Assembly (NCBI RefSeq): GCF_000019965.1 | Contig: NC_010571.1 | Coordinates: 248,001 to 312,000, forward strand | Source: Opitutus terrae PB90-1 | Lineage (GTDB): Bacteria > Verrucomicrobiota > Verrucomicrobiia > Opitutales > Opitutaceae | DNA length: 64,000 nucleotides | Direction of reading: 5' to 3' | Shown here: positions 354 to 63,021 of the stretch, in pieces | Numbering within the stretch: the stretch's first letter is position 1 | How the letters are laid out: each line of letters opens with the position of its first letter | The notes under the pieces: model-generated | Told to the model about the DNA's origin: nothing | Databases searched by the model: none | Seen by the model: the letters and a program-made list of their open reading frames with translations, nothing else | Made by a program: the position numbers and the translations under genes

Positions 354-986
354 TCAGTTGTTGTCGGACTCCTTTTTGCAGATCCAGCACTTGACGCCGA
401 TCTTGCCGTAAACGGTGTGGGCTTCGGAGAAGCCGTAATCGATGTTCTCGCGCAGGGTGTGCAGCGGCACGCGGCCCTTGCGCTGCCATTCACGGCGGGC
501 GATATCCGCGCCACCGAGACGGCCGGAGCACTGGATGCGGATGCCCTCGGCGCCGAGCGTCATGGCCATTTCGACGGCCTTCTTCATGGCGCGGCGGAAA
601 GCGATGCGGCGCTCGAGCTGCAGCGCGACGTTCTCGGCGACGAGCTGCGCCTCGATCTCGGGCTTCTTCACCTCCTGGATGTCGAGGAGGATCTCCTTGC
701 CGGTGAGCTTCGCGAGCTCCTCCTTGATCTTCTCGATTTCCTGGCCCTTGCGGCCGATGACGATGCCGGGGCGCGCGGTGTAGATCTTGACGCGGACGCG
801 GTTGGAGGCGCGCTCGATGAAGATGCGCGGCACGGAGGCCTGCTTCAGCTTCTCCATGAGCTTCTCACGGATGATCTGGTCCTCCTCGAGGAGCTTCGGG
901 AAATCTTTCTTCGTCGCGTACCAGCGGGACTGCCAGTTGCGGCGGACGGCGAGGCGGAAGCCGGTGGGATTGGTCTTTTGGCCCAT
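354..986 (-). CDS. rpsC: 30S ribosomal protein S3
   Basis: Small-subunit protein uS3 at the mRNA entry channel, with helicase-like activity in the ribosome. The 210 residues start [15 protein letters not shown] type II KH domain follows, with its GxxG loop visible in [12 protein letters not shown], and the C-terminal domain has [13 protein letters not shown] and GVKCWICK. Family members are usually 210-235 residues, so it is full length. It lies 9 nt downstream of rplV in the S10 operon. No Shine-Dalgarno sequence precedes the ATG (upstream bases aacttaccacc). Nothing suggests truncation. Confidence 0.98.
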
Positions 987-995
987 GGTGGTAAG

Positions 996-1337
996 TTAGT
1001 TCGAGTTGCCGTCGGTGAGCACGATGCGGATGTGCGCCATTTTCTTGCGGCGGGGCATCGCGGAACCACGCGCGCCGGCCTTGAAGCGCTTCAGCACGGG
1101 GCCGTTCTCGATCAGCGCGAGCTTCACGGTGAGCGCGTCGGCCGAGAGATTGTTGTTGTTCTCGGCGTTGGCGATGGCGCTGCGCAGCGTCTTCGCGATC
1201 AGCCGCGCGGACTTGCGCGGAATGAGCGCGAGGTAGTCGGCGGCTTCCGCGGCCTTGCGGCCTTGGATGATCCGCGAAATGTCGCGCATCTTTTTGGGCG
1301 ACATCCGCGCGTAACGAGTGAGGGCTTGAACTTCCAT
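996..1337 (-). CDS. rplV: 50S ribosomal protein L22
   Basis: Large-subunit protein uL22, whose extended loop lines the nascent-peptide exit tunnel. The 113-residue protein starts MEVQALTRYARMSPKK, where L22 homologues begin. An in-frame extension to 1388 adds 17 residues with no L22 character and runs into the spacer, so the ATG at 1337 was chosen. Conserved parts include RYARMSPKKMRDI, the SAIANAENN segment and the C-terminal RGSAMPRRKKMAHIRI tunnel-loop region. It sits between rpsS and rpsC in the usual order. No Shine-Dalgarno motif is present upstream. Confidence 0.97.
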   Translation of the reverse strand: MEVQALTRYARMSPKKMRDISRIIQGRKAAEAADYLALIPRKSARLIAKTLRSAIANAENNNNLSADALTVKLALIENGPVLKRFKAGARGSAMPRRKKMAHIRIVLTDGNSN

Positions 1338-1401
1338 GGTTGTCGGGAGGATTCCGGCCAGCAATCCGACAGGAGGTCGGACCGGCACCGGCGATAGCAG
1401 C

Positions 1402-1415
1402 CCCGCGGACGCGGG
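1402..1415. repeat. Small palindrome in the rpsS-rplV spacer
   Basis: CCCGC, a GGAC loop and GCGGG form a short hairpin in the 120-nt spacer between rpsS and rplV. The same stem-loop core (CCCGCGGACGCGGG) recurs at 4287-4304 in the rpsJ-rplC spacer, where the stem is 7 bp. It could be an mRNA processing or stability element, or a copy of a small dispersed repeat. There is no U-tract, so it does not look like a terminator. Confidence 0.45.
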
Positions 1416-1457
1416 ACCCTACCCTTTGGGTTGCTTGGTGGGTTGAAAAACGACGGG

Positions 1458-1733
1458 TTAGATTTCCTTGCGCGTCATGCCGCCGTGCGCCTTGAAGATG
1501 CGCGTCAGCGCGAACTCGCCGAGCTTGTGGCCGACCATGTTCTCGGTGACGTAGACGGCGATGAAGGCCTTGCCGTTGTGCACGCTGAAGGTGTGCCCGA
1601 CGAAATCAGGCGTGATCGTCGAGCGACGGGACCAGGTCTGGATGGGCTTCTTGGCGCCGGCCTTGTTCGCCTTCTCGATCTTCTCGAGCAGGTGGTAGTC
1701 GACGAAGAAGCCTTTCTTGATGGAACGTGACAT
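1458..1733 (-). CDS. rpsS: 30S ribosomal protein S19
   Basis: Small-subunit head protein uS19, which contacts S13 and the A-site finger region. The 91 residues start [18 protein letters not shown]. Also present are [32 protein letters not shown] and [11 protein letters not shown], all typical, and the length matches the family (about 92). It follows rplB by 12 nt in the S10 operon. A 120-nt spacer with a GC hairpin separates it from rplV. Confidence 0.98.
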
Positions 1734-1745
1734 GGGGCGGGTGGA

Positions 1746-2612
1746 TTACTTTTTGCCGCGCGGCTTGCGGCCGTTGTGATGGACGATGATCTGCGCGTTC
1801 GACTGCTTCGAACGGCGGCGGGTCGGGAAGCCCTTCGCGAGCTGGCCCCACGGGGACACCAGCTGCTGACGACCGCCACCACCCTTGGACTTGCCCTGAC
1901 CACCACCGTTGGGGTGATCGACGGGGTTCATCACCATACCGCGGACGGTGGGGCGAACGCCGAGCCAGCGACGACGGCCGGCCTTGCCCAGCGACTGGTT
2001 GTTGTGGTCGCCGTTGCCGACTTCACCGATGGTGGCACGACACTTCGCATTCACGAGCCGGAGCTCGCCGGACGGCATCTTCAGCGTCGCCCGGTCACCC
2101 TCGACGGCGACCAGCTCGAGGCCGGTGCCGGCGGCACGGGCGATCTTGGCCCCGCGGCCGGGGACGAGTTCCACGGCGTGGACTCGCGTCGACGGCGGGA
2201 TCAGGTGAAGCGGAAAATTGTTGCCGACGTTGTAATCGTTCGTGGTCGCCTTGTTGGAGGCGAAGATCTTCGCGCCGACCTGCAGACCTTCGGGCGCGAG
2301 AATGTATTTCTTCTCGCCGTTGGCGTAGACCACGAGCGCCAGATTCGACGTGCGGTTCGGATCATATTCCAGCGCCTCGACCGTCGCGGGCATGTCGAGG
2401 ATGTCGCGTTTGAAGTCGATGATCCGGTAGAGCTGCTTGTGCCCTCCGCCGATGTGGCGGGTGGTGATGCGGCCATAGACGTTGCGGCCGCCAGTCTTGG
2501 GCTTGGGCTCGGTGAGCGCCTTCTGCGGCCGCTTCTTGGATAGGCCCTCGCGCTTGTTCAGCGAGGTGAACCGGCCGGCGGGCGTGAGCGGACGAAAAGA
2601 GTGAATTGCCAT
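1746..2612 (-). CDS. rplB: 50S ribosomal protein L2
   Basis: Large-subunit protein uL2, which supports the peptidyl transferase centre and subunit association. It is 288 residues (family usually 273-280). The OB-fold and SH3-like halves are visible, with RRDILDMPATVEALEYDPNR-like sequence in the middle and the MNPVDHPNGGGQGKSKGG active loop near the C-terminus. The loop reads DHPNGGG where many bacteria have DHPHGGG; loop position 2 of the pair is variable between phyla. A GGAGAAA Shine-Dalgarno lies upstream of the ATG. It follows rplW by 32 nt in the S10 operon. Confidence 0.98.
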   Translation of the reverse strand: MAIHSFRPLTPAGRFTSLNKREGLSKKRPQKALTEPKPKTGGRNVYGRITTRHIGGGHKQLYRIIDFKRDILDMPATVEALEYDPNRTSNLALVVYANGEKKYILAPEGLQVGAKIFASNKATTNDYNVGNNFPLHLIPPSTRVHAVELVPGRGAKIARAAGTGLELVAVEGDRATLKMPSGELRLVNAKCRATIGEVGNGDHNNQSLGKAGRRRWLGVRPTVRGMVMNPVDHPNGGGQGKSKGGGGRQQLVSPWGQLAKGFPTRRRSKQSNAQIIVHHNGRKPRGKK

Positions 2613-2644
2613 GATGGGATTTCTCCGGGTTGGGCGGACTCGCC

Positions 2645-2926
2645 TTAGACGAGTTCGATCTTGTCGCCGGCTTTAAGCGTCACGATTGCCTTCTTGTAGT
2701 CGGAACCGACGCTCGGGCGGCCGGTGCGGCTTTTTTTGTTTTTGCCGCGGTAATTCTGCACGTTCACGCGCTTGACCGTGACCTTGAAGGTCTGCTCCAC
2801 GGCCTCGGCGATCTGGTGCTTGTTCGTGCCCTTGAACACCTCGAAGGTGTATTGGCCGAGCTCGGACGAAAGCTTGTTGGACTTCTCCGAGAGGCGGACG
2901 AGTTTGAGAACCTGGTCGGCTTGCAT
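2645..2926 (-). CDS. rplW: 50S ribosomal protein L23
   Basis: Large-subunit protein uL23 at the exit-tunnel rim, the docking site for trigger factor and SRP. The 93 residues carry the L23 signatures LVRLSEKSNKLSSELGQYTFEV, split here between residues 8 and 29, and the NVQNYRGKNKKSR extended loop. Its ATG shares one base with the rplD stop (TAATG), which indicates translational coupling. A GGAGGGA Shine-Dalgarno lies inside the end of rplD. It is full length. Confidence 0.97.
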   Translation of the reverse strand: MQADQVLKLVRLSEKSNKLSSELGQYTFEVFKGTNKHQIAEAVEQTFKVTVKRVNVQNYRGKNKKSRTGRPSVGSDYKKAIVTLKAGDKIELV

Positions 2927-3558
2927 TAGTTCTTCCCTCCGTTGACGCGGGCGATGATCGCTTCGAGCGCCTTGCTGCTGACGATGATTTTCTGGTACTG
3001 CGCCAGATCGAGCGTGTTGAGCTTCGCGGCTTCCTGCAGCGTCACGCGCTCGAGGTTGCGCGAGGCGCGAGCGGCCTCCGCAGCGAACGGTGCGTCGACC
3101 AGGAGCACCTTGCCCTTGGGGGCGATGCGGCCGAGGATCTGGTTGAAGGCCTTGGTCTTCGTCGCCTTGCTGTCGAACGCCTCGATCACGGCGATTTCGC
3201 CGGCGGAGGCGCGGTCAAAGAGCGCGCGGCTGAACGCGAGCTGCTTCACCTTGGCGTTGATTTTTTTCGAGTAGTCGCGCGGCTTCGGGCCGAACACGAC
3301 GCCGCCCCCGCCCCACAGCGGGGAGCGGATCGAGCCGGCGCGGGCGCGGCCGGTGCCCTTCTGGCGCCACGGCTTCTTGCCGCCGCCGCGAACTTCGCCG
3401 CGGGTCTTGGTCGAGTGCGTGCCCTGGCGGTTGTTGGCGTTGATCGCGACGATCACTTCCTTGACGGCCTGGAGACCTTTGTCGCCCTCGAACGTCGGCA
3501 GGGTGAAATCCTGCTCGGTGCTCTTCGTGGCGTCGGGACTAAAAACGGTGAGTTTCAT
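2926..3558 (-). CDS. rplD: 50S ribosomal protein L4
   Basis: Large-subunit protein uL4, with a globular domain and a tunnel-lining loop. In some bacteria it also autoregulates the S10 operon; no leader structure supporting that is evident here. The 210 residues include the loop segment THSTKTRGEVRGGGKKPWRQ, then GTGRARAGSIRSPLWGGG and VFGPKPRDYSKK, which define L4. A GGAG Shine-Dalgarno precedes the ATG. It lies 18 nt downstream of rplC and overlaps rplW by one base. Confidence 0.98.
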   Translation of the reverse strand: MKLTVFSPDATKSTEQDFTLPTFEGDKGLQAVKEVIVAINANNRQGTHSTKTRGEVRGGGKKPWRQKGTGRARAGSIRSPLWGGGGVVFGPKPRDYSKKINAKVKQLAFSRALFDRASAGEIAVIEAFDSKATKTKAFNQILGRIAPKGKVLLVDAPFAAEAARASRNLERVTLQEAAKLNTLDLAQYQKIIVSSKALEAIIARVNGGKN

Positions 3559-50464: not shown

Positions 50465-52150
50465 TCATCCATGCGTCAGCTTCCGGTATTTGATCCGGTG
50501 CGGCTGGTCGGCGTCCTTCCCCTTTCGGCGATGCAGATCCTCGATGTAGCTCGAGTAGTTGCCGTTGAACCAGTGCACGTAACTCTCGCCCTCGAACGCG
50601 AGGATGTGCGTCGCCACGCGATCGAGGAACCACCGGTCGTGCGACACCACCACCGCACAGCCCGCGAAGTTCTCCAAACCTTCCTCCAGCGCACGGATCG
50701 AGTTCACGTCCAGGTCGTTCGTCGGCTCGTCGAGCAGGATCAGGTTCGCGCCGCTCTTCAGCAGCCGCGCGAGATGCACGCGGTTGCGCTCGCCGCCCGA
50801 GAGCACGCCGACCTTTTTCTGCTGATCGGCTCCGGTGAAGCCAAACTGCGCGCAATACGCGCGGCTGTTCACCTCGCGATTGGCGAGCTTCAGGATCTCC
50901 TCGCCGCCGCTGATCGCCTCCCAGATCGTCGCCTTGTCCGGCAGCGACTCGCGCGACTGGTCGACGTGCGCGATCTTCACCGTATCGCCGACGCGCAGCG
51001 TGCCGCCGTCCGGCTGCTCCGCGCCCGTGATGAGCTTGAACATCGTCGTCTTGCCGGCGCCGTTCGGGCCGATCACACCGACGATCCCGCCAGGCGGCAG
51101 CGCGAAGTTCACGTTCTCGAACAGCACGTTCTCGCCGTAGCTCTTGGTGAGTTTCTGCGCCTCAACCACGAGATTGCCCAGCCGCGGACCGGGCGGGATC
51201 AAGATTTCGAACTCCCGCTCCTTCTCGGCCACGTTTTCCTTGAGCATCGCCTCATAAGCGCTAATGCGCGCCTGCGATTTCGCCACCCGCGCCTTGGCCG
51301 ATTTGCGGATCCACTCCAGTTCGCGCGCCATCGCCTTCTGCCGGCGATCCTCCGTGCGCTGCTCCACCGCCATCCGCCGCTGCTTTTGCTCGAGCCACGA
51401 GGAGTAATTGCCCTTCCATGGAATTCCGTGGCCGAACGACAGCTCGAGGATCCACTGCGCGACATTGTCCAAAAAATAGCGATCGTGCGTCACCGCGATC
51501 ACCGTTCCCTCGTAGCGGGCCAGGTGCTGCTCGAGCCACTGCACGCTTTCGGCATCGAGGTGATTGGTGGGTTCGTCGAGCAACAGGATCGACGGTTTCT
51601 GCAACAGCAGTCGTGCCAGCGCCACCCGCCGCCTCTCGCCGCCCGACAACGTGTCGACGATCTGCTCCCCCGACGGACAGCGCAGCGCGTCCATCGCCAT
51701 TTCCACCTGCGGCGCCACGTCCCACGCGTTGAGCGCGTCGATCTTCTCCTGCAGTTCGCCCTGTTTCGCCATGATCGCGTCCTTCGCCGCATCGTCCGGC
51801 GCTGCATCGAGTTCATCCCAGGTGTCATCGTACGCCGCCGCGAGATCCGTCAGGTGCTTCACGCCCTCCTCGACACACGCGCGCACGGTCGCACCGGCGG
51901 TGAGCTGCGGCTCCTGCTCGAGCAGCCCGATGGTATAACCCGGCTCGAAATGCACCGCGCCCTCGATCTCCTTGTCGCGGCCGGCGAGGATCCGCAGCAG
52001 CGAGGACTTGCCCGAGCCGTTCAGCCCGAGCACGCCGATCTTCGCGCCGTAGAAGAACGACAGCGAGACGTCGCGGAGGATTTCCTTGCGCTCGATCTTC
52101 TTCGAGACGCCAAGCATGGAGAAGATGATGGTCGGTGCTTCCTCGGGCAT
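50465..52150 (-). CDS. ettA: Energy-dependent translational throttle protein EttA (ABC-F)
   Basis: Soluble ABC-F ATPase that binds the ribosomal E site and gates early elongation in response to ATP/ADP. The 561 residues carry two nucleotide-binding domains: GLNGSGKSSLLRILAG, LSGGERRRVALARLLL and LLLDEPTNHLD, then GPNGAGKTTMFKLITG, LSGGERNRVHLARLL and LLDEPTNDLD. The EttA arm and linker between them and the length (EttA of E. coli is 555) fit EttA rather than Uup. The ATG at 52150 was chosen; upstream in-frame sequence contains two palindromes and is not conserved-looking. Confidence 0.94.
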   Translation of the reverse strand: MPEEAPTIIFSMLGVSKKIERKEILRDVSLSFFYGAKIGVLGLNGSGKSSLLRILAGRDKEIEGAVHFEPGYTIGLLEQEPQLTAGATVRACVEEGVKHLTDLAAAYDDTWDELDAAPDDAAKDAIMAKQGELQEKIDALNAWDVAPQVEMAMDALRCPSGEQIVDTLSGGERRRVALARLLLQKPSILLLDEPTNHLDAESVQWLEQHLARYEGTVIAVTHDRYFLDNVAQWILELSFGHGIPWKGNYSSWLEQKQRRMAVEQRTEDRRQKAMARELEWIRKSAKARVAKSQARISAYEAMLKENVAEKEREFEILIPPGPRLGNLVVEAQKLTKSYGENVLFENVNFALPPGGIVGVIGPNGAGKTTMFKLITGAEQPDGGTLRVGDTVKIAHVDQSRESLPDKATIWEAISGGEEILKLANREVNSRAYCAQFGFTGADQQKKVGVLSGGERNRVHLARLLKSGANLILLDEPTNDLDVNSIRALEEGLENFAGCAVVVSHDRWFLDRVATHILAFEGESYVHWFNGNYSSYIEDLHRRKGKDADQPHRIKYRKLTHG

Positions 52151-52225
52151 AGCCGGCCAACTTGCGGCCTCGCCCGCCCCGGCGCAAGAACGCGTCCTCC
52201 CCGCTCCGCTACTCCCCCCGAAGGC

Positions 52226-52250
52226 CATTTTCACGTAATACGTGAAAATG
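52226..52250. promoter_or_regulatory. Palindromic site TTTCACG-N5-CGTGAAA (copy 1)
   Basis: A perfect palindrome with 12-bp arms around a single centre base, with half-site TTTCACG at 52229-52235 and CGTGAAA at 52241-52247. It lies 76 bp upstream of ettA and about 300 bp upstream of the GH3 gene. Copy 2 is at 52340-52362 and a variant is at 61443-61461. An operator-like site for a dimeric regulator, or a small dispersed palindrome, are the alternatives. Confidence 0.5.
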
Positions 52251-52339
52251 ATTTCGCTGCATTTCCTCTTCGCGCTTACCGCGCACTCGCCGGAGGCCCA
52301 GCGACCGCCACCTCGATGCGGCGGAGCGTGCCTGAGGCA

Positions 52340-52362
52340 ATTTTCACGTATTACGTGAAAAT
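52340..52362. promoter_or_regulatory. Palindromic site TTTCACG-N5-CGTGAAA (copy 2)
   Basis: Copy of the palindrome at 52226-52250, present as the exact reverse complement over 23 bp, with half-sites at 52342-52348 and 52354-52360. Centre-to-centre distance is 113 bp. The pair brackets 89 bp of GC-rich sequence between the divergent ettA and GH3 genes. Two equal sites in one divergent intergenic region fit looping by a repressor or a paired repeat element. Confidence 0.5.
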
Positions 52363-52553
52363 GGCTCGGCGCGGCACGGATCGAATTCTGGGCAGGTTCG
52401 GGAGCCCGAAATATCCGGAGCCGGCTTCGGGCGCTATTCGGCACTCGTCAGCGGGGCGCGCATCCAAGATACCGCTCGTCCGTCCTAGCCGCTTCGCAAA
52501 TCGTCCCACTCTCGCCGCTTCGTCCTCACTTCTGCAGTTCTGGTCTCCCCTTC

Positions 52554-54611
52554 ATGCTCCTCCCCACCACCATCACCCTCGCCGAGCCGTCCTTTAAAAC
52601 GCCCGTCAGTTCCGATGTCGCCGAGCAACGCGCGAACGCGCTGCTCGCCCGCCTGACCGTGGCGCAGAAGCTCCAGCTGATCAGCGGCCACAATTCCTTT
52701 TTCATCAAAGGCTACCCGGAGCTCGGCATTCCCGAGCTCTACATGTCCGACGCCACCGGCGGCGTGAACATTCGCCGCAACCTCAGTACCGCGCTTGAGA
52801 AATCCACGGCGTTTCCTAATCCGCTCGCGCTCGCCGCCACGTGGAATCCCGCGCTTGCCTACCGCTACGCCCACAGCATCGGTGAGGAATGCCGCGCCGG
52901 CGGCATCGCGTTCCTCCTCGGCCCGGGGATGAACCTGTATCGCCACGCCCAAGCTGGCCGGAACTTCGAGTATTTCGGCGAAGATCCACTCCTCTCCGCG
53001 AAAATGATCGAGCGTTACGTCGCCGGCGTGCTCGACACCGGCACGATCCCGACGCTGAAGCATTTCCTCGCCAACGAAACCGATCACTACCGCCGCACCT
53101 CCAACTCCATCGTCGACGAGCGCACGTTGCACGAGATCTACCTGCCGCCGTTCCGCGCTGGCATCGAGGCGGGCGCGATGGCGGTGATGACCTCCTACAA
53201 CCTCCTCAACGGCGAGTGGTGTGGCCAGAGCCGCAGCGTGATCACCGAGCTGCTGCGCGAACAGCTCGGTTATAAATGGCTCGTGATGACCGACTGGTGG
53301 TCGGTGTGGGACGCCCAGAAGATCATTGAGTCCGGCCAGGACCTCGAAATGCCCGGCGAGAAGTTCATCAAGGCCGACGCCGACCGGCTGCTCAAGGCCG
53401 GCAAGGTCACCGAGGTGCAGATCGATAGGATGGCGCGCAGCATCCTGCGCACGTGCATCGCGATGGGCCTGCACGACCGGCCCGTGCAGGACACCTACTT
53501 CCTCGAAAAATTCCCCGAGCACGAGCAGGTCGCGCTACAGACCGCTCGCGAGGGCATCGTGCTGTTGAAGAACGATGGCGTGCTGCCGGTCCGCCGCGAG
53601 TCCGGCCAAAACATCCTCTTCACCGGCCGCTACGCACAGCACCTGCCGCGCGGGCTCGGGGCCGCCGAGGTGCAGGGCTACGACCCGGTGCCGCTCTTGC
53701 AAGAGTTGCAGGACACCTACGGCGCGCAGCTGCACTTTGTCGCGGCTCCGACCGACGAGGAGATTCGCGCCGCGGACATCGTGTTCCTCAGCACGGGCAC
53801 CGAGGACAGCGAAGGCTGGGACCGCCCGTTCGCTCTGCCCGACGCCGAAGAGCAGCGGATTCAGCGGATCGTCGGGCTCAACCCGCGGACCGTCGTCATT
53901 GTGAACACCGGCAGCGGGATTCAGATGACCGGCTGGAACGATCGCGCCGCCGCCGTTGTGTGGGCCTGGTATCCGGGCCAGATCGGCAACCGCGCGCTCG
54001 CCGAGATCCTGTGCGGGGAGACGAATCCCAGCGGCAAGCTCCCGATCACGATCGAGCGGCGGTTCGAGGACTCGCCCGGCTTCGGTTATCTTCCTGCCGG
54101 CGAGTCGCTGTATGTCGGTTGGGATCAGGACAACAACATGTCCCACCCCGTTACACGGGTCGTCTACCAGGAAGGCGTTTTCATCGGCTATCGCTGGTAT
54201 GAGCAGAAGCAGATCGCACCCCTCTATGCGTTCGGCCACGGACTTTCCTACACCACGTTCGCGTATTCGGATCTCAAGCTCAGCGAATTCGTCATGCCGC
54301 TCGAAGGCCGCGTCAGCGTCGAGTTCACGGTGACCAACACCGGCCTGATCGCAGGCACCGAAATCGCGCAGCTTTACGTTCGCGACACGCACGCACCGCT
54401 ACCGCGTCCGCCGAAGGAGCTGAAGGCGTTCAGCCGCGTTTCGTTGCAGCCGGGAGAAAGCCGCGTCGTCCGCTTTCGGCTCACCGCAAAGGAATTCGCC
54501 TATTGGGACGTGGCTGCGCACGCCTGGCGCGCCGATCCGCGCGACTATACCCTCCTCGTCGGCGGCGCGTCGGACCGGATCGCGCTCGAAGCCAAGCTCA
54601 CGCTGCAGTGA
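52554..54611 (+). CDS. Glycoside hydrolase family 3 beta-glucosidase-like enzyme
   Basis: 685 residues. The GH3 N-terminal barrel has LYMSDATGGVNIRR, LLGPGMNLYRHAQAGRNFEYFGED and the nucleophile region LVMTDWWSVWDAQ with Asp247. The C-terminal alpha/beta sandwich has LLKNDGVLPVRRESG and FLSTGTEDSEGWDR, and a fibronectin-III-like domain closes it (GTEIAQLYVRDTHAPLPRPPKELKAF). No export signal is obvious in the first 20 residues, so it may be cytoplasmic or use a non-classical route. It should cleave beta-linked glucose or a related sugar; exact linkage is not shown. Two palindromic sites lie upstream. Confidence 0.92.
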   Translation: MLLPTTITLAEPSFKTPVSSDVAEQRANALLARLTVAQKLQLISGHNSFFIKGYPELGIPELYMSDATGGVNIRRNLSTALEKSTAFPNPLALAATWNPALAYRYAHSIGEECRAGGIAFLLGPGMNLYRHAQAGRNFEYFGEDPLLSAKMIERYVAGVLDTGTIPTLKHFLANETDHYRRTSNSIVDERTLHEIYLPPFRAGIEAGAMAVMTSYNLLNGEWCGQSRSVITELLREQLGYKWLVMTDWWSVWDAQKIIESGQDLEMPGEKFIKADADRLLKAGKVTEVQIDRMARSILRTCIAMGLHDRPVQDTYFLEKFPEHEQVALQTAREGIVLLKNDGVLPVRRESGQNILFTGRYAQHLPRGLGAAEVQGYDPVPLLQELQDTYGAQLHFVAAPTDEEIRAADIVFLSTGTEDSEGWDRPFALPDAEEQRIQRIVGLNPRTVVIVNTGSGIQMTGWNDRAAAVVWAWYPGQIGNRALAEILCGETNPSGKLPITIERRFEDSPGFGYLPAGESLYVGWDQDNNMSHPVTRVVYQEGVFIGYRWYEQKQIAPLYAFGHGLSYTTFAYSDLKLSEFVMPLEGRVSVEFTVTNTGLIAGTEIAQLYVRDTHAPLPRPPKELKAFSRVSLQPGESRVVRFRLTAKEFAYWDVAAHAWRADPRDYTLLVGGASDRIALEAKLTLQ

Positions 54612-54660
54612 GCCATCGGATGTAGGGCGGATCAGGAGTTCCCGTCCTACCCCCGCAGTT

Positions 54661-55152
54661 TCACGCCACCTTCAGCTCGCGCACGAAATCCGCCAATGCG
54701 GCGAGATCCGTGTCCTTCAAGGCCGCCGCTTTGAAACTGGCATCCATCCGGCAGGCGCGCGTGAGATGGGCTTTGGCGGCGGTCATCTCGCCGAGCAGAC
54801 ACGTGTAGCACGCAAGGTTGTAGTGGATCACCGCGTGCTGGTTGCCGTGCAGCCGCTCGGCTTCGAGCAGCACCTGCTTCGCGGCGGCGACATTTTCAAC
54901 GCGCCGCACCGCGCAGCCGAGTGAGATCCACGCGGCGACGTTGTTCCGATCCCGCTCGAGCAGCCGCCGCGCGTAGTCGACCACGCGAGCCCATTCGTGA
55001 GCCGCCATGAAGAGGTCCATTCGCGCCGCCATCACTTCCGGCGCGAACTGATCCGCCTCGACGACCGCATCCAGTTCGTGCGCTGCCTCGGCGAGCAAGC
55101 CGAGTCCGAGATAGCCGTAGGCGTATTGGACGCGTCGCGCGGTCGGAATCAT
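54661..55152 (-). CDS. TPR-repeat protein
   Basis: 163 residues from ATG at 55152. Three to four TPR-like helical pairs are visible (YGYLGLGLLAEAAHELDAVV, WARVVDYARRLLERDRNNVA, AVIHYNLACYTCLLGEMTAA). No signal peptide is present, so it is likely cytoplasmic. It lies between the GH3 gene (convergent) and the YkgJ-like gene. Frame extension to 55374 is not supported by conserved-looking sequence. A protein-interaction role is inferred. Confidence 0.75.
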   Translation of the reverse strand: MIPTARRVQYAYGYLGLGLLAEAAHELDAVVEADQFAPEVMAARMDLFMAAHEWARVVDYARRLLERDRNNVAAWISLGCAVRRVENVAAAKQVLLEAERLHGNQHAVIHYNLACYTCLLGEMTAAKAHLTRACRMDASFKAAALKDTDLAALADFVRELKVA

Positions 55153-55303
55153 CACGTCGCCCAATAGCCGGATGCACCGACCCCAGCAAGATCCGCCTGC
55201 CGTTTCACGACCTCGCGCACGGTGTTTCGCTCGGTAGCGGCGCAGCTGGGTGCGCCCTCCGCAGCACTCACGACACTTCCTCGCATCGGCCAACCTCGAG
55301 AGT

Positions 55304-55585
55304 TCACCCCGCTGGCCGCGTCGCGAGTTCCAGCGCCGCGAGGTGCCGCAACGCTTCGTCTCGACTGCCGCCACACATTTCCTGGCTCGGCCGCAAGCTC
55401 ACGCACACCGCCGGCCGCTCCGGTTTGCCGAACAGCGCGCAGCGCATGTCCGGCAGCAGCTGCACGCACGGAATCCCGGCCGGTTTTCCTCCGCTCATCC
55501 CGGGAATCGGCGACGAGATCGAAGGCGCGATGCAGCACGCCCCACAACCCGAGCGGCAGCCAAATGTGTCAGCGAGTGCGGACAT
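55304..55585 (-). CDS. YkgJ-family cysteine-cluster protein
   Basis: 93 residues from ATG at 55585 (MSALADTFGCRSGCGACCIA). The arrangement CRSGCGACC, then a spaced Cys in IPCVQL, RCALFGKPERPAVC and a final MCGG matches the YkgJ zinc or iron-sulfur cysteine-cluster family. The function of the family is not known for certain. An in-frame start 13 codons upstream is less likely. It is oriented like the DUF748 gene, 170 nt from its end. Confidence 0.82.
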   Translation of the reverse strand: MSALADTFGCRSGCGACCIAPSISSPIPGMSGGKPAGIPCVQLLPDMRCALFGKPERPAVCVSLRPSQEMCGGSRDEALRHLAALELATRPAG

Positions 55586-55755
55586 CCTCAGCCGCAGGAA
55601 GGCACAGACTGCGTTGAGAGCCAATCCACCAGTGCAGCACCAACCGCATCACTTCAATCTCACACCGGACGCTATGCGAACGGATTGTTTTGCGCTTCTT
55701 GTGCCTTTTTGCGGCCGTCGCGAGATTCTACACAGCCCCGTCCACGAGTCCGCAC

Positions 55756-58700
55756 TCAATCCAAGTGCAACGTCACGCGCGGGCCTTTCGCGACGCTCGC
55801 GTCGTCTTTGATCTTCGCGATCTGTACGCGGTCCGGCGCCACGCGTCCTTCCTTCGTCAGAAGTTCCTTCACCCGCTCCGCGCGCGCTTCCGCGAGCTGC
55901 GTCAGGTCCTTCGCGCCGACATCGAGGGTATCGATCAACCGCTGCTCCATTTCGCTGAGCGGCACATCGAGCGGGGCGGGCGATGGCGCGGCCGGCGGCG
56001 CCTGAACGGGCGCAGGGGGTGGTGTCTGTGCGACTTGCGGCTGCGGAGGCTGGACGACCGGCGCGGGCGGCGGCTCGGGTCGCCGTGCGACCGGCACGGG
56101 CTTTTCGTCCTCGCCCCACCACCGGTCGCGGAGTCCTTTCAATGTGGCCATGTTCCAGGCCCGGCGAATCAGCCCCGGTTTTTCGTGTTGTTCCCGCTGC
56201 GCCTCGGCTGGCGCAGCCTGCGTCTCCGGGAACGCGGGCGTCCCGTCCGCAACGGGTTCGGCCGGTGCCGGTTCGTCGACCACGGGCGCAGTTCGTGCCG
56301 CCGCCGCGCTCGCTTCGGGCGGTGAGATCGCGGTCGCGCCAACCGGTGGTGGTACGACCGGTTCCGGTCGCACCGCGCGCGGCCGGCCGAACCGCTCGTC
56401 GAACATTTGCGTGATCGCATCCGCGCGGTTGCTCGACGAGATTAGCAGTTCCTCGATCGGGGGGACCGTGGCATCGGCCGCCCGCAGCTTTTCCCACACC
56501 CGCCGCCGGATCTGCTCCTCGAGCGTCCGGCGTTTCAACTCATAGAGTTCGCCCGGATCGTAGCTCGGTTCGAGCCGCAACCGGAGCTCCGGCCGCTCGG
56601 CCATCGCACGCTGCAAAACCGCCAGCCGTTTCAGGCTCGCCGCCGTCGGCGTGGCTTCACCGGGTGCGAAATCCTGATACTGCAGTTCCTCGCCGCCGCC
56701 GCCGAACATCGAGCCGATCAATGAAAACGGCGACGTCGCCGCCTTCGCCAGTACGCCCGTGAGGACCTGTCCCACCACGCGGCCCACTTGAAACTGCGGA
56801 TCCGCCAGGCTGCCCTGCACCGGCACGTCGAGCACGATCCTGCCGTTTGCGTCCTTCAACAGCGCCACGCCCAGCCGCACCGGCAGCTTCACCGCGTCCG
56901 GACTCGGCGTCGGTCGGCCCAGCGTGAACTGCTCCAGCGTAACCTTGTTGCGGATATCGAGTCGCTGTTCCACGAGCTTGGCCTGCGTTTCGAGAAACAG
57001 TGCCCCGCGCTCGAGTTCGTAGCCGGCATACTTCGCGACGTATGGGCTCACCGGCGATAGATCGATCGATTTCGCCTCCACCGCGAGATCGGCGAACGGA
57101 CTCGCCGCGAAGGGATTGAACCGGCCCCGCACCACAACCGGCCCCTCGCCACCGACGAACGCTCGCAGATCAGCCTCGCCGCGCGCCGGATTGCGCGAGG
57201 AGACGTTCTGCACCGACCCGCCGATTTGGCTGATCACCATCTCGACCGCTGGCTGGAGCGAGTTGTCGCTGAACGTCAGCTCGCCGCCGTCGATCGTAAG
57301 CTGGCCGACGGTGAGATCCAGCGGTGCCGTGCCTGGCGCCGGCTTCGCGCGCGGCATTGCCACCACCGCCGCGCCGGGCTCCCGCGCTCCCGTGAGCTGC
57401 GCAAAATTGAGTTGCCCGTTCTGGTCCACGGCCAACCGGGTGTATGGCGCGCTCACATTCACCGCGCCCATCGTCACGCTCACCCGGGGATGGCTCGACA
57501 CGGTCACGTCATTTGCCGCCAGGTTGGCGAATCCGCCCAGCTCCTCCTCGCGCAGCGCACTCGCGAACACCACCTCCTCGAGTCGACCGCCGCCCGTGAA
57601 GCTCACGTCGGGTCCCGCCGGTCCCGGCGCGACGGCCACGCGGCCTTTCAGCGACGCCGTGCCGCGCGCGAGCCGCACCGGCAGTGCTCGTTCCATGTAT
57701 CCGCTGAACGGTGGCAGCGGCATCCACGCCAGCTCGAGGTCCAGGTTGAGCCGGAACGGCGCCAGCGCCACGTTACCGCTCGCCCGCGCCGTCCCCTGCG
57801 GGTTCAGCCCGAAGGTTGCCTCAACCGGCAACGTTGCGCCCCGCGTGGACGTGACGTCCTTCACCGTCGCGTTGACGCCGGTCAGCTCGATATCGACCGG
57901 CCGCGGGGTCGTTCCGTCGTGCCATTGCACCACGAAATCCCGCACGCCGAATTCCGTCGCGGTCACTTCGATCGGCTGGTCGTGAGCCGGCTCCGTCGCG
58001 TCGCCGGCGGACGACCCCGCTGACCGCGGCGCCAGCACCGATGCGAGATTCAAAGCCCCGTCGGCATCCCGGCGCACGGCGAGCCGGCCGCCACTGAGCC
58101 GCAGCGTGCCGAGTGCGACGCGCCGCTGCAGCCCGTCGACGCTGAAGCCGCGCAGTTCCGCCGTCGGCAGTTCCAGCAACGGCTGGCCCGTCGCCCGCTC
58201 GACCAGTTTCAGATTGGTCAACTGCGCGGCGCCCTCGGTGACCTGCAGCCGGCGATCGTCCGGCAGAAAACTCACATCGTAGCGGCCGCTCAGCGTCAGC
58301 TTGCCCGCGGTCAGCAGCAGATTCATCTGCTCGTCGAGATACGGCGCGTATTTCGAGAGCAGCACGTTCTCCAGCCGCCACTCGCCGGTCGAGGTGAGCG
58401 GGCGCGCGCTCAGCGAACCGGTCCACGTCAACTTCTCGCCGGACTCCGAGCGCGCCTCGAAGCGGTACGGCGCGCCGTGTCCGCCCGCGGTGCGAAATTC
58501 CACCAGCGTGAAGTTCACCGGCCCGAGCAGCGTACGAAACACTTCGCTCCGCGAGCGATCGACAAAATCAACCTGCGCACCCGCCACCGTGAGCCGCGAA
58601 ATCCGCCACGGCCGGCTGCGCTGCCGCGGCTCCGCCGGACGGGCCGCGTCCGGTTCGCGCGTTTTTCCAAAGCGATCGAGCAGGTCGGAAAAACTCGGCG

Positions 58701-59052
58701 TGCCGTGCTCGTCGATCTCCACGCCGCCGCGGAAATCCTCGAGCGTGATTTCGCCCAGCACCCACTCGCCGCGCAGCGAGGCGAGCGGATCGAAGTTCAC
58801 GGACAGCCGCCGCCAGCCCGCGAATGGTTCGGCACCGCTCGCGTTCATGATCTGCACCCGTTCGAGCGCGATGGAGAAGGCGAACGGGTCGATCTTCACC
58901 GCGCCGATGCTCACCGTGCGACCGAGCTGCGCCGCCATCCGTTTCTGCAACTCCGTCCGCGCGATCGGGGGCAGCACAAAATATCCGAGCACCGCATAAA
59001 CTCCGACCAAAACGAGCAGGATCCAAAACCGGCGGCGACCTCGGGAAATCAT
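55756..59052 (-). CDS. Large DUF748/AsmA-like envelope protein
   Basis: 1098 residues from ATG at 59052. An N-terminal membrane anchor (FWILLVLVGVYAVLGYFVLP, about 9-28) is followed by AsmA/DUF748-type repeats such as AAQLGRTVSIGAVKIDPFAFSI and GTASLKGRVAVAPGP. A Pro/Ala/Gln-rich segment (about 930-1030) precedes an OmpA-like C-terminus (LTQLAEARAERVKELLTKEG). DUF748 proteins are related to AsmA-like lipid-transport or envelope-stability proteins; the precise role here is not known. Upstream frame to 59178 lacks support. It is divergent from the thioesterase-like gene. Confidence 0.88.
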   Translation of the reverse strand: MISRGRRRFWILLVLVGVYAVLGYFVLPPIARTELQKRMAAQLGRTVSIGAVKIDPFAFSIALERVQIMNASGAEPFAGWRRLSVNFDPLASLRGEWVLGEITLEDFRGGVEIDEHGTPSFSDLLDRFGKTREPDAARPAEPRQRSRPWRISRLTVAGAQVDFVDRSRSEVFRTLLGPVNFTLVEFRTAGGHGAPYRFEARSESGEKLTWTGSLSARPLTSTGEWRLENVLLSKYAPYLDEQMNLLLTAGKLTLSGRYDVSFLPDDRRLQVTEGAAQLTNLKLVERATGQPLLELPTAELRGFSVDGLQRRVALGTLRLSGGRLAVRRDADGALNLASVLAPRSAGSSAGDATEPAHDQPIEVTATEFGVRDFVVQWHDGTTPRPVDIELTGVNATVKDVTSTRGATLPVEATFGLNPQGTARASGNVALAPFRLNLDLELAWMPLPPFSGYMERALPVRLARGTASLKGRVAVAPGPAGPDVSFTGGGRLEEVVFASALREEELGGFANLAANDVTVSSHPRVSVTMGAVNVSAPYTRLAVDQNGQLNFAQLTGAREPGAAVVAMPRAKPAPGTAPLDLTVGQLTIDGGELTFSDNSLQPAVEMVISQIGGSVQNVSSRNPARGEADLRAFVGGEGPVVVRGRFNPFAASPFADLAVEAKSIDLSPVSPYVAKYAGYELERGALFLETQAKLVEQRLDIRNKVTLEQFTLGRPTPSPDAVKLPVRLGVALLKDANGRIVLDVPVQGSLADPQFQVGRVVGQVLTGVLAKAATSPFSLIGSMFGGGGEELQYQDFAPGEATPTAASLKRLAVLQRAMAERPELRLRLEPSYDPGELYELKRRTLEEQIRRRVWEKLRAADATVPPIEELLISSSNRADAITQMFDERFGRPRAVRPEPVVPPPVGATAISPPEASAAAARTAPVVDEPAPAEPVADGTPAFPETQAAPAEAQREQHEKPGLIRRAWNMATLKGLRDRWWGEDEKPVPVARRPEPPPAPVVQPPQPQVAQTPPPAPVQAPPAAPSPAPLDVPLSEMEQRLIDTLDVGAKDLTQLAEARAERVKELLTKEGRVAPDRVQIAKIKDDASVAKGPRVTLHLD

Positions 59053-59301
59053 GAGCGCGGTTTGGACAACGAAACCGCAGCCGCGCTCCACGTCGTTTCC
59101 CACCGCGCCACATCGGCGCAGCCCGCGATCAACGCGCCATCGGGGAATCCTCCAGCCGCGGCGGGAGACTCTGCTCAAGCCGCTGGAGCCATGCAGCTTG
59201 CGCTTTTGGCCAACGACGAGCCCTAATACCCTGCGCGCGGCGGCTCATCAGTGCCGCGCCGGCTTTGACGTGCGCGGGTTTTTCCTCCAACGTCCGCCCG
59301 A

Positions 59302-59763
59302 ATGAAATCGGTGAAGGTGCCAGCGCTGGAGCTTTTTCTCCACGAGATGATCCCGCTCGCGAAAGCGATGGGTGTGGGCGTGGAGGTAAGCGACGCCAAG
59401 GCGCTCGTGCTGACCGCACCGAAGGAGCAGAACCGAAATTCGCTGAACACCGCGTTTGGCGGCAGCCTCGTCTCGCTCGCCACGCTCGCCGGCTACGGCG
59501 TCGTGTGGGAGTTGATGAAGGAGGAAAATGCCGCAGCAAAAAGCGAGTGGCGCATCGTCGTGAAGGAAAGCCGCGCCGCGTATCGCCGGCCCGTGCTCGG
59601 CGACCTCCGCGCAATCTGCGAGCGACCCGCGCAGGCGGCGATCGCCGAGTTCAAGGATGCCCTCGCGCGCTACGGCCAGGCCAAGCTCAAGCTCAAGGCG
59701 GCCGTGGTCGAGAACGGCGTGACCGCGGTCGATGTGACCGCGGCATTCGTCGTCATCCGCTGA
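59302..59763 (+). CDS. YiiD-C-like hotdog thioesterase
   Basis: 153 residues. ALELFLHEMIPLAKAMGVGVE, LVLTAPKEQNRNSLNTAFGGSL and VSLATLAGYGVVWELMKE match the YiiD C-terminal putative thioesterase domain, in which the acetyltransferase half found in E. coli YiiD is missing. A catalytic Asn/Gly-rich stretch (NTAFGGS) lies at the hotdog helix start. The acyl-CoA substrate is unknown. It is divergent from DUF748 and followed by about 465 nt without a gene. Confidence 0.85.
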   Translation: MKSVKVPALELFLHEMIPLAKAMGVGVEVSDAKALVLTAPKEQNRNSLNTAFGGSLVSLATLAGYGVVWELMKEENAAAKSEWRIVVKESRAAYRRPVLGDLRAICERPAQAAIAEFKDALARYGQAKLKLKAAVVENGVTAVDVTAAFVVIR

Positions 59764-60228
59764 ACAGCGCAACGGCTGGCGGCGCGCGCAGTCGGAAGGT
59801 GGCGCATCGCGAAAACGCGTGCGTGGGCGCGCGGCCGTCCTCGCTCGCACAGATCGATTCCGAACGCAGCAAGCCATGCGCTGTCTCCGGCCCTTGCGCG
59901 GCGTCGTTGACGCCTTGCGACGGAGCTGCATTTCCGCCCAGACGAAGGCAGAAACGGCCCGATTCGCGCAAAATTCTCGAATCGCCCCTGTCGGAGGACG
60001 GACGCCAGCGCGTGGCAACTCTTTCATCCATGAGGCGCTTGCAGTTCCGCGCGCGTATCCAGCCATCCTCCGCCATGCCGGAATTTGCAGTTGCTCCCCG
60101 GAGGCACATGAACGAGCGTCAGGCCTTCACGCATGCGTCGAGCCGCATCCCCTGCGCTCCGCATGCCTTCCTAAAACACGGCCGTTCCCCCGTTTCCGGG
60201 TTGAGCGCCAGCAACATAAAGAACCCAC
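59764..60228. other. Gene-poor interval between the thioesterase and RGG-rich genes
   Basis: 465 nt. Open frames on both strands are GC-rich shadows rich in Arg and Ser; none has a recognisable domain or start context. A 118-codon minus-strand frame (59753-60109) was considered and not accepted. The region probably holds the promoter of the RGG-rich gene, but no clear hexamers stand out. No hairpin repeat of the families seen elsewhere was noticed. Confidence 0.5.
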
Positions 60229-61332
60229 ATGTCAGATCAACCAACGTCCGGTGAGCCGCTTCCGGCTCCCGCGACCGCCGCCGGAGAGGCTCCTACTGCC
60301 GCTCCCGCTGGCGATGCCAGGCCGATCGGCGCGTTCGGCACCGCGAAGGGCTCCGGCCTTTCCCGCGGCAAACGCGCCAACCCACCGGCCGCTCCGACCG
60401 CCGCCGAAACTGCCAGCCCAGGTGCTTACAAGCCCACCTCCGTCGAGGTGATCACGCCTCCGCGCGAATATACGCACCCGTTTGCCAGTGAACAGCCCGC
60501 CCCGGCGCCTGTCGCCGAGTCCGCCGCAGTCTCCCCGGCAGTCCCCGCCCCCGCCGAAGCCCCCGCGCCCGTCTCTTTGGCCGCCAACGGCCCGGTGACC
60601 AGCGCGAGCGAGCCTCCCGCCGTCACGGCGCCCGCCGCCGGCGAGCCGGTCGGCGCTCCCGCCGAAATCATCCAGCCCTCGGTGGAAAAAGCCGAGATCC
60701 GGATCCTCCCGCCTTCCGAGGCGAAGCGTCCCGCCGTCAGCTGGGGTGAACCCGGCAACACGGACGACACGCGGCCGCAGCGCGAACCGCGCGGCACATT
60801 CCAGCCGGACCGCCGTGAGCGGAAATTCGAGCCGCGCGAACCGCGTCAACCGCGTGAGCCGCGTTCCTTCGAGCCGCGCGAACCGCGACGCGATCCCTCC
60901 TTCGAGCAACGCGGCCCGCTGCCTGGTCCCGCCAACAAGGCGCCGCAGCGCGACGAGCCGCAGCCCGCTTCCGGCGGCTTCGTCGGCTGGCTGAAAGGTC
61001 TCTTTGGCGCCAAGCCCGCCGAATCGGCTCCCGCGACCGAACGCCGCGAGGGTGAGCAGCGCGACGGCGAATTTCACCGCCGGCGTCATCGCGGCGGCCG
61101 CGGTCGCGGCGGCTATCGCGGTGACAACCGCGGAAATGAAAACCGCGGCGGACAGGGTGGCCAGGGCGGACAGCAACGCGATTTCTCGCAGGGCGGCGGC
61201 GGTCAGTCGCAGTCCGGCGAATTCCGGCAAGAAGGTGGCGGCGGTCGCCGCCGACGCCGCGGTGGTCGCAGTCGCTATCGTGGCGACGGCGGCCCGCGCC
61301 CCGAGGGCCAGCAGGGCGGCGGCGCGATCTAG
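60229..61332 (+). CDS. Low-complexity, RGG-rich basic protein
   Basis: 367 residues, start MSDQPTSGEPLPAPATAAGE. The first 150 residues are Ala/Pro-rich, the middle has repeated EPREPRQPREPRSFEPREPR-like units (about residues 203-222), and the C-terminus is Gly/Arg-rich with RGGRGRGGYRGDN and GGGRRRRRGGRSRYRGDGG. A short FVGWLKGLFG-type hydrophobic patch lies near residue 250. RGG boxes bind RNA in many proteins, so RNA binding or condensate formation is inferred. I do not recognise a named family. Its stop codon TAG lies inside the inverted-repeat element starting at 61329. Confidence 0.8.
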   Translation: MSDQPTSGEPLPAPATAAGEAPTAAPAGDARPIGAFGTAKGSGLSRGKRANPPAAPTAAETASPGAYKPTSVEVITPPREYTHPFASEQPAPAPVAESAAVSPAVPAPAEAPAPVSLAANGPVTSASEPPAVTAPAAGEPVGAPAEIIQPSVEKAEIRILPPSEAKRPAVSWGEPGNTDDTRPQREPRGTFQPDRRERKFEPREPRQPREPRSFEPREPRRDPSFEQRGPLPGPANKAPQRDEPQPASGGFVGWLKGLFGAKPAESAPATERREGEQRDGEFHRRRHRGGRGRGGYRGDNRGNENRGGQGGQGGQQRDFSQGGGGQSQSGEFRQEGGGGRRRRRGGRSRYRGDGGPRPEGQQGGGAI

Positions 61333-61473
61333 CCCGGAAATTTCATGAACGAGAGTATTCATGTGCTCGAAATTTCCGTCCGCCTGCGGCGGAGCGACTT
61401 TGTCGCGGCTAGCCCCGACAAAGTCGGCCCGAAGGGCGGATCTTTCACGAAGTTCGTGAAAGATCCGGGCTAG
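61329..61473. repeat. Compound palindromic element with 10-bp terminal inverted repeats
   Basis: CTAGCCCGGA (61329-61338) and TCCGGGCTAG (61464-61473) are exact inverted ends. Inside are GGAAATTTC/GAAATTTCC (61336-61377), CGACTTTGTCG/CGACAAAGTCG (61395-61426) and a 29-nt near-perfect palindrome at 61438-61466 with TTTCACG-N5-CGTGAAA at its core. The left end contains the stop codon of the RGG-rich gene. The organisation resembles a small mobile or REP-type element of about 145 bp; it encodes no protein. Confidence 0.65.
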
Positions 61474-61507
61474 GTTGCGCCAGCCCGCGTGCGCGTGAGC
61501 GCTTTCC

Positions 61508-61545
61508 AGGCGCCCGTTCGAAAGGACGGGCGCCTTTTACTTTTC
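61508..61545 (+). terminator. Intrinsic terminator after the RGG-rich gene
   Basis: AGGCGCCCGT and ACGGGCGCCT make a 10-bp perfect stem with an 8-nt loop, followed by TTTACTTTT. It lies 176 nt after the RGG-rich stop and 190 nt before murA. Confidence 0.82.
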
Positions 61546-61734
61546 GTTGAGCGTTCGAGGTCGCCCGCCGCGTTGACGTTCACGCACCGCCGGCATTAAG
61601 CAATTCGCCGCCAGCGGTCAGCCGATCGTTCGCGTCCTGCTCCTCCGCCGCTCGCCGCGGCCCACTCTCAACACTCCACGCTCAGCTCCGAGCTTTGACT
61701 CTCAACTCTCAACTCTGAGCTCTCCGCTCCCCTC

Positions 61735-63021
61735 ATGGATCTCATCGTCAACGGCGGCTCGCCGCTCTCCGGCACGATCACCCCGTCCGGCAACAAGAAT
61801 TCGGTGCTGCCGATCCTCTGCGCATCGCTGCTGACCAACGCGCCCGTGCGGCTGCTCAACGTCCCCGCAATCACCGACGTCGAGAAACTGGTCTCGTTCT
61901 TCACTGAGCAGGGCTCGCGCATCACGTGGGACCGCGCCGCCGGAGCGATGACGATCGACCATGGCTCGTTCGATGCGGACCGGCTGCAGGGCGAGTTGCC
62001 CACCGGCATGCGCTCGGCCGTGCTGCTGTTCGCGCCGCTGCTGCACCGGATGCAGAAGCTGACCATCCCCGCGAAGGCGGAGGGTTGCTCGCTGGGCATT
62101 CGCGAGCTCGACCCGCATCTGGAGATCCTGGAGAAACTGGGCGCGAAGGTTTCCTCAAACGGCACGCTCACGCTCAGCCTGAAAAACGGCTTCGTCGGCG
62201 CCCGACACTGGCCCGACTACATGTCGGTGACCGCGACAGAAAACTTTGTGATGGCCGCGGTGCTCGCCGACGGCGAGTCGACGCTGATCAACGCCGCCAG
62301 CGAGCCGCACGTGCAGGATCTCTGCGAGGTGCTCGTCGCGATGGGTGCGAAGATCTCCGGCATCGGCACGAGCAAGCTCACTGTCACCGGCGGGAAACGG
62401 CTGCGCGGCGGCACGTTCACGATCAACACGGACTACCACGAAGTCGTCACCTTCCTAGCCCTTGGCGCGATCACCGGCGGCGAGGTGAAAGTGCGCCAGT
62501 CGTTGCCGCACCATTTCGACCTGATCGCACGCGCGTTCGCGAAGCTCGGCGTGAAGGTCGAGCACGACGGCGATACGGCCATCGTGCGCCGTAAGCAGAA
62601 GCTCGTCGTCGAGGAGCCGTTCACCACCAACCTGCTGCCGAAGATCGAGGCGGCGCCGTGGCCGTATTTCCCGGTCGACCTGCTGCCGTGCATGATCGCG
62701 CTGGCGGTGCGCGCGAAGGGCGCGATGCAATTCTGGAACAAGGTTTACGAGGGCGGCTTCACCTGGATCCCGGAGCTCTCCAAGTTCGGCGCGCACGTCG
62801 TCGTGAGCGATCCGCATCGGATCATCGTGTTTGGCGATCGCCCGCTGCGCGCCGCGACCGTCGATGCGCCCTACATCATCCGCGCGGCGGTCGGGCTCTA
62901 CATGGTCGCGGCGAGCATTCCCGGCCGTTCGGTGGTGAAGAACGCCGACACGATCCGGCGCGCGCATCCGAACTTCGTCGAGAACCTCCGCAGCCTCGGG
63001 GCCGACGTGGAGTGGAAATGA
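61735..63021 (+). CDS. murA: UDP-N-acetylglucosamine 1-carboxyvinyltransferase (MurA-like)
   Basis: First committed enzyme of peptidoglycan synthesis, transferring enolpyruvate from PEP to UDP-GlcNAc; it is the target of fosfomycin. The 428 residues have GNKNSVLPILCASLL near the start, the catalytic loop AEGCSLGIRELDPH with Cys118 (matching Cys115 of E. coli), and late segments RAAVGLYMVAASIPG and ENLRSLGADVEW. Loop and core sequences are more divergent than usual (GGCxIGxR reads EGCSLGIR), yet the catalytic cysteine is kept. It precedes ruvB by about 100 nt with an inverted repeat between. Confidence 0.9.
   Translation: MDLIVNGGSPLSGTITPSGNKNSVLPILCASLLTNAPVRLLNVPAITDVEKLVSFFTEQGSRITWDRAAGAMTIDHGSFDADRLQGELPTGMRSAVLLFAPLLHRMQKLTIPAKAEGCSLGIRELDPHLEILEKLGAKVSSNGTLTLSLKNGFVGARHWPDYMSVTATENFVMAAVLADGESTLINAASEPHVQDLCEVLVAMGAKISGIGTSKLTVTGGKRLRGGTFTINTDYHEVVTFLALGAITGGEVKVRQSLPHHFDLIARAFAKLGVKVEHDGDTAIVRRKQKLVVEEPFTTNLLPKIEAAPWPYFPVDLLPCMIALAVRAKGAMQFWNKVYEGGFTWIPELSKFGAHVVVSDPHRIIVFGDRPLRAATVDAPYIIRAAVGLYMVAASIPGRSVVKNADTIRRAHPNFVENLRSLGADVEWK

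Follow-up and report, generated by a model that had tools for sequence, protein, structure and literature searches.

A dispersed palindromic repeat in Opitutus terrae and its probable helix-turn-helix partner gene

Described systems and the palindromes of the window

The closest described systems are the REP and REPIN repeats with their RAYT partners. One study describes repeat-flanked RAYT genes and, in O. terrae, GTAG repeats (PMC3733652). GTAG repeats of the kind reported there were not seen among the frequent 12-mers and 16-mers of 406 kb, a count made independently of that paper's consensus. The repeat analyzed here, family A, resembles REP/REPIN sequences in several respects: its short palindromes recur many times in intergenic regions, commonly as doublets, with copies flanking a dedicated gene, and their distribution among relatives is patchy. 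It differs in that the putative partner is a small helix-turn-helix (HTH) protein with no recognized transposase domain, that the palindromes are odd with a constant TAWTA centre, and that they have no GTAG end (GTAG or CTAC lies within 12 nt in 1 of 37 copies). The O. terrae genome has four Y1_Tnp hits, three of them over the cut-off, and the nearest family A copy is 5.3 kb from any of them. With no family A copy near any of these four loci, a RAYT partner is ruled out.

Autoregulated repressors of the Cro/C1 (XRE) type, including YdaS-like and phage repressors, share with the putative partner a predicted HTH fold, palindromic sites and a palindrome near the start codon. Unlike them, the O. 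terrae protein falls below the Pfam cut-off, has palindromes on both sides of its gene and is accompanied by dozens of intergenic copies with no visible regulon theme. MatP/matS, Noc and SlmA are systems in which a DNA-binding protein has many dispersed palindromic sites, unevenly distributed along the chromosome. Family A likewise offers many dispersed and unevenly distributed palindromes to one putative binder, but the HTH protein has no similarity to these proteins in the scans made, and both sites and specificity differ between sister species. In PRDM9, the DNA-reading residues and the genomic sites turn over jointly. HTH residues and palindromes also change jointly here, an analogy only, the present protein being a bacterial HTH protein with no recombination role shown. 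The half-site of parS resembles that of family A; parS itself was ruled out, as its canonical 16-bp consensus has no match in the O. terrae genome with up to one mismatch.

The window is the whole stretch of DNA analyzed, 64,000 nucleotides of the genome of O. terrae PB90-1. A pattern search of it matched TTTCACG-N5-CGTGAAA exactly three times, at the positions given in the original prediction (Table 1). Sites 1 and 2 are, as had been described, mutual reverse complements; 113 bp separate them, and they lie where an ettA-like gene and a GH3 gene diverge. The third site is also an exact match, with a differing centre, but it is part of a longer repeat, family B, and unrelated to the other two. 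Placing all three in one palindrome family was therefore mistaken: 12 copies in the genome, the third site included, belong to this other repeat. The three palindromes of the window are two different things, a family A doublet (sites 1 and 2) and family B (site 3). We interpret the doublet as probably belonging to a dispersed, mostly intergenic REP/REPIN-like repeat that has a dedicated Cro/C1-type HTH partner and not a RAYT transposase.

Table 1. Features around the three palindromes, in window coordinates
Feature	Position	Strand	Description
ettA-like ABC-F gene, left of doublet	50465–52150	-	ABC_tran 6.4e-51
Family A palindrome, doublet copy 1	52226–52250		25-bp perfect odd palindrome; 19-bp core 52229–52247, centre TAATA
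Doublet spacer	52251–52339		By eye unlike the spacers of other own-genome doublets
Family A palindrome, doublet copy 2, inverted relative to the first	52340–52362		23-bp perfect palindrome; core 52342–52360, centre TATTA
Glycoside hydrolase family 3 (GH3) gene, right of doublet	52554–54611	+	Glyco_hydro_3 1.8e-35
Family B repeat, containing the third site	61329–61473	+	About 145 bp; ends CTAGCCCGGA...TCCGGGCTAG; outside the HTH-linked family
Third palindrome, the family B terminal hairpin	61443–61461		Centre AAGTT

Searching the whole genome (5,957,605 bases), as had been proposed, returned 50 exact copies of the pattern and none of the reversed-pattern control. These copies split into 36 with centre TAWTA, 12 in the longer family B repeat and 2 with other centres, at 2130136 and 5565045 (one TACTA, one TGACA).

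Family B has several hairpins and inverted ends. In the own-genome DNA examined there are 13 distinct copies, 12 with exact half-sites and one variant (L114). Together with the doublets of about 82 bp found in genus g30, it looks like the short non-coding repeats with inverted ends known as MITE-type; unlike those, neither has an identified parent transposase. BLAST with family B as the query gave no match at the four Y1_Tnp loci. The RGG-rich ORF that precedes family B in the window (60229–61332) has no Pfam match at 1e-5.

The family A repeat and the gene it brackets

The family A core, TTTCACGTAWTACGTGAAA, occurs in 36 copies in the 5.96-Mb genome, mainly as doublets (control 0). With the TACTA copy added, the 37 copies form 21 clusters: 15 hold two or three copies and 6 a single copy. 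Copies within clusters are spaced 66–270 bp apart, except for one cluster at 535 bp. The core is identical in the 36 copies; the outer arms, often complementary, fall into few types and differ between copies. The spacers of the own-genome doublets look unrelated by eye. Ten of 15 doublets are inverted, judged from the centre base in an orientation list compiled by hand. Beyond O. terrae, 42 stretches carry the core, 40 of them in Opitutae MAGs and 2 in Bacillaceae. The exact matches in Bacillaceae (L081 3170–3188 and L100 1057–1075) apparently lie in the coding sequence of an amidase-like protein, judged by reading.

The cluster with 535-bp spacing encloses a gene for a 119-aa HTH protein (genome 1431138–1431494), which lies outside the window and about 1.13 Mb from its doublet. 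The original prediction had offered, as one possibility, a family of repeats without a link to any gene; family A is indeed a dispersed intergenic repeat, but these two copies bracket the HTH gene. The arms of the upstream palindrome (L021 1587–1637) reach 25 nt with one mismatch. This palindrome stops 2 nt ahead of the HTH start codon and covers the probable ribosome-binding site. Two MAG loci with the same palindrome contain a homologous ORF, in one case between two copies (L070) and in the other next to a single copy where the stretch ends, with the N-terminal part unreadable (L067).

Using the single protein as query, HTH matches were found in 17 of 57 genomes, O. terrae included. Of 252 genomes in the bacterial family, 130 contain a relative by a 24-row alignment query at E 1e-8, and the other 122 gave no match. 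In a sample of the phylum, 18 of 387 genomes matched, 17 within the family and one marginally outside it (E 3.5e-9). No relative of the protein was found in viral contigs (pattern-based scan), phages or plasmids, and carriage by any of the three was rejected on that basis. The HTH set studied comprises 129 loci with 130 domain hits (one gene gave two), mostly the best-scoring of a longer match list.

The O. terrae protein is under the Pfam cut-off (YdaS, 14.3 bits versus 30) and has no NCBIfam match. Among 24 HTH members, weak hits to YdaS (21 of 24) and HTH_3 (8 of 24) were obtained. Its AlphaFold2 model (mean pLDDT 86) resembles lambda-repressor and POU domains, with a best Z of 7.9, a moderate value for which the tool issues a warning, and a Foldseek E of 0.22; the predicted fold is of the Cro/C1 (XRE) type. 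Domain scans of the 24 members found no transposase family above cut-off. Sub-threshold hits were one to an IS3 transposase (E 0.05) and one to an invertase (E 0.058), and no transposase gene was seen between the bracketing palindromes of O. terrae. No description of the HTH/palindrome pair was found in the literature searched, mainly openly available journal articles.

To describe bracketing across relatives we took the 124 HTH genes whose two flanks each extend to 300 bp or more, and counted palindromes with a TAWTA-like centre within 350 bp. A palindrome lies near the gene in 93 of the 124; the other 31 have none within this distance. In 58 of 124 genes the same half-site is found on both flanks. 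None of 209 mock windows passed this both-flanks test, and 20 shuffles averaged 0; the mock-window control covers that test only, and single palindromes averaged 0.15 per shuffle. Start codons have the nearest palindrome centre within 30 nt in 42 of 84 cases, stop codons in 43 of 77. Genes with exactly one palindrome per side carry the two inverted in 24 cases and direct in 9 (p 0.007); inverted orientation across the gene is only a preference, not a strict rule. Three HTH genes (L128, L224 and L243) carry two palindromes per side. The doublets of about 82 bp (L070 5915–6003 and the genus g30 loci) are alike over their whole length, and one is directly upstream of an HTH gene.

Recognition helix, half-site and change between relatives

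The original prediction saw conserved half-sites with changing centres. In family A this is reversed: the centre TAWTA is near-constant, while the half-site varies between species. Between genes, the half-site tracks seven residues where the recognition helix begins. PPQR is found with TTTCAC, PRQR mostly with TGTCAC or TGTAAC, and PKQR with RGTAAC or GGTCAC. Of 101 half-site rows, 94 were parsed and 7 dropped. Across these 94, an Arg or Lys at helix position 2 corresponds to G at site position 2 (76 of 76), Pro at helix position 2 to T at the same site position (10 of 12), and Glu at helix position 7 to G at site position 7 (24 of 26). Summed mutual information over 68 de-duplicated combinations is 14.0, versus a permutation mean of 7.3 and a maximum of 10.9.

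The covariation goes beyond overall relatedness, because half-site sharing tracks the helix among proteins of similar divergence: at identity 0.40–0.50 outside the helix, the half-site is equal in 60 of 111 same-helix pairs versus 94 of 1817 different-helix pairs. Forty-seven disjoint sister pairs divide into 10 with the same helix and site, 6 with only the same helix, 5 with only the same site and 26 differing in both (Fisher p 0.002). A few rows with a misparsed helix add noise to the covariation, identity-band and synteny sets. In the AlphaFold2 model the code residues fall in the turn and the start of helix 83–92, the predicted recognition helix. We infer from the covariation of half-site and recognition helix across the family that the HTH protein binds the palindromes.

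The HTH gene often stays in place, since 48 of 129 genes have both flanks in common with a gene of another genome (12 groups). The O. terrae gene has the same two flanking genes as its counterpart in G001, a genome of the same genus, with PPQRVHE/TTTCACGTA in O. terrae and APGRVHE/GAACCGTA in G001, where a palindrome was found upstream only. A syntenic pair in genus g30 has PPQRVHE/TTTCACGTA versus SPQRVHL/TTTCATCTA, with palindromes on both flanks. In a syntenic group of 17, Lys replacing Arg accompanies a changed first site base, and His goes with C at site 4 in L187, L247 and L256, a rule broken by L189. The other syntenic groups show no change of helix or palindrome. Some syntenic HTH genes have thus switched helix and palindrome jointly.

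Orthologous gaps also differ in whether they hold a palindrome. In the sister species G001, the gap between ettA and GH3 is about 206 bp long and has none. In genus g30, G106 has one doublet that G030 lacks and G030 another that G106 lacks, and the doublets of this genus are similar to each other over about 82 bp. No target-site duplication was recognized at the two empty g30 sites; a duplication is not definable there because the flanks are too diverged.

A general palindrome pattern matched 19 of 57 genomes (control 0) and had no match in 18 of 37 family genomes. Within the family, palindrome counts are greater in HTH-positive genomes (Mann-Whitney p 0.0006). Presence and absence alone are weakly associated (Fisher p 0.049): 5 of 17 HTH-positive genomes have no pattern match, and 7 of 20 HTH-negative family genomes have one to five.

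Alternative readings and the proposed repeat–protein pair

The doublets could instead belong to a mobile element, with palindrome-HTH-palindrome as the transposable unit and the doublets as short non-autonomous derivatives served in trans by an unknown transposase. We consider this unlikely, though it accounts for several observations. The genus g30 doublets are similar over their full length and come and go at orthologous gaps, and the palindromes flanking HTH genes are preferably inverted. On the other hand, the HTH proteins match transposase and invertase families only below cut-off, more than a third of the genes (48 of 129) sit at a position common to another genome, the spacers of the O. 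terrae doublets look unrelated by eye, and a target-site duplication was not recognized.

An ordinary regulon is improbable. Here the HTH protein would control transcription, and its targets, the ettA-like and GH3 genes included, would carry the doublets as looping operators. Nineteen of the 21 clusters are intergenic, compared to a noncoding share of the genome of 0.169, and they occupy 9 divergent, 5 convergent and 5 tandem gaps (context chi-square p 0.007). The divergent gaps exceed the expectation from their share of base pairs, which favors operators, as do the identity of the core in 36 copies and the covariation of helix and half-site, the expected trace of a regulator. The contexts rest on gene calls from a home-made hexamer score. 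Since this caller missed the HTH gene itself, the cluster at that locus (L021) is called divergent from the two genes outside it. Two clusters (L028 and L035) overlap gene calls; the L035 doublet (1548–1653) sits within a long call (651–3500) and may therefore be in coding sequence.

The convergent gaps count against a regulon. So do the promoter-facing neighbors: the 22 of 24 that were scanned, ettA and GH3 among them, are mixed enzymes, transporters and unknowns, with no common functional theme seen by reading. In addition, the ettA-GH3 gap of the sister species (one locus) has no doublet, and palindromes follow the HTH genes as well as preceding them. The operator family of a dimeric regulator put forward in the original prediction survives in part: the covariation suits sites of a dimeric HTH protein, but the convergent gaps, the mixed neighbors and the empty orthologous gap (one tested) do not fit target operators.

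Less probable still is a role in chromosome organization, in which the HTH protein would bridge palindromes or mark a chromosome region in a MatP/matS- or Noc-like manner. The spacing of doublets at 66–270 bp is compatible with bridging. No family A cluster occurs across 2.13 Mb (genome 2.54–4.66 Mb; P 0.003), and this region contains the probable terminus near 4.35 Mb, with the origin near 1.1 Mb by coarse GC skew. However, the gap is asymmetric about the probable terminus, which rules out terminus exclusion as its explanation. Were this a core chromosome function, it would also be surprising that 122 of 252 family genomes have no HTH match and 18 of 37 no pattern match. That the sites are due to chance, or are an unrelated hairpin of the terminator or RNA-structure kind, is hardly credible: perfect palindromes can form hairpins and some lie in convergent gaps, but a 19-bp core identical in 36 copies with differing outer arms, together with helix covariation, is unexpected of terminators, and Rfam has no match above the gathering score at 51000–62500 of the window.

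A dispersed repeat with a dedicated HTH partner remains the preferred reading. Computation established that the repeat exists and brackets HTH genes, that the pairing is lineage-restricted, that helix and half-site covary and change jointly at some syntenic loci, and that orthologous gaps can be empty. On this basis, the HTH protein would bind each palindrome as a dimer, with the turn and first residues of helix 83–92 reading the half-site and the centre TAWTA kept constant. A palindrome beside the start codon would make the HTH gene autoregulated, and close doublets may let two dimers bridge or loop the DNA. The palindromes would be gained and lost as a REP/REPIN-like population; the HTH gene would often occupy a fixed locus, its specificity shifting jointly with its palindromes. 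Points against this reading are the 31 HTH genes with no palindrome nearby, the exceptions among genomes, sister pairs and syntenic genes, an orientation that is only preferential, and the moderate fold scores. The reading also gives no account of how the palindromes spread, as no transposase gene was seen between those that bracket the O. terrae gene and no target-site duplication was recognized.

More tentatively, but as a serious possibility, family A may be a repeat system that works without a transposase. The HTH protein and its own palindromes would be a pair that maintains itself, with copies bracketing the gene in cis and others scattered in trans, and protein residues and dozens of sites would turn over jointly. 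The result would be a natural code with many independent specificities in one family. Two predictions follow from the pairing. The HTH protein should prefer the TTTCAC site over a control site, TGTCACGTAWTACGTGACA, and by the recognition code a change of Pro83 to Arg would shift the site from TTTCAC towards TGTCAC.

If this reading is true, dispersed palindromic repeats need no transposase-like partner, and a new system becomes available for testing how they persist. The numerous helix and half-site combinations found in nature would also serve as a data set on how HTH specificity changes, with syntenic loci as before-and-after cases.
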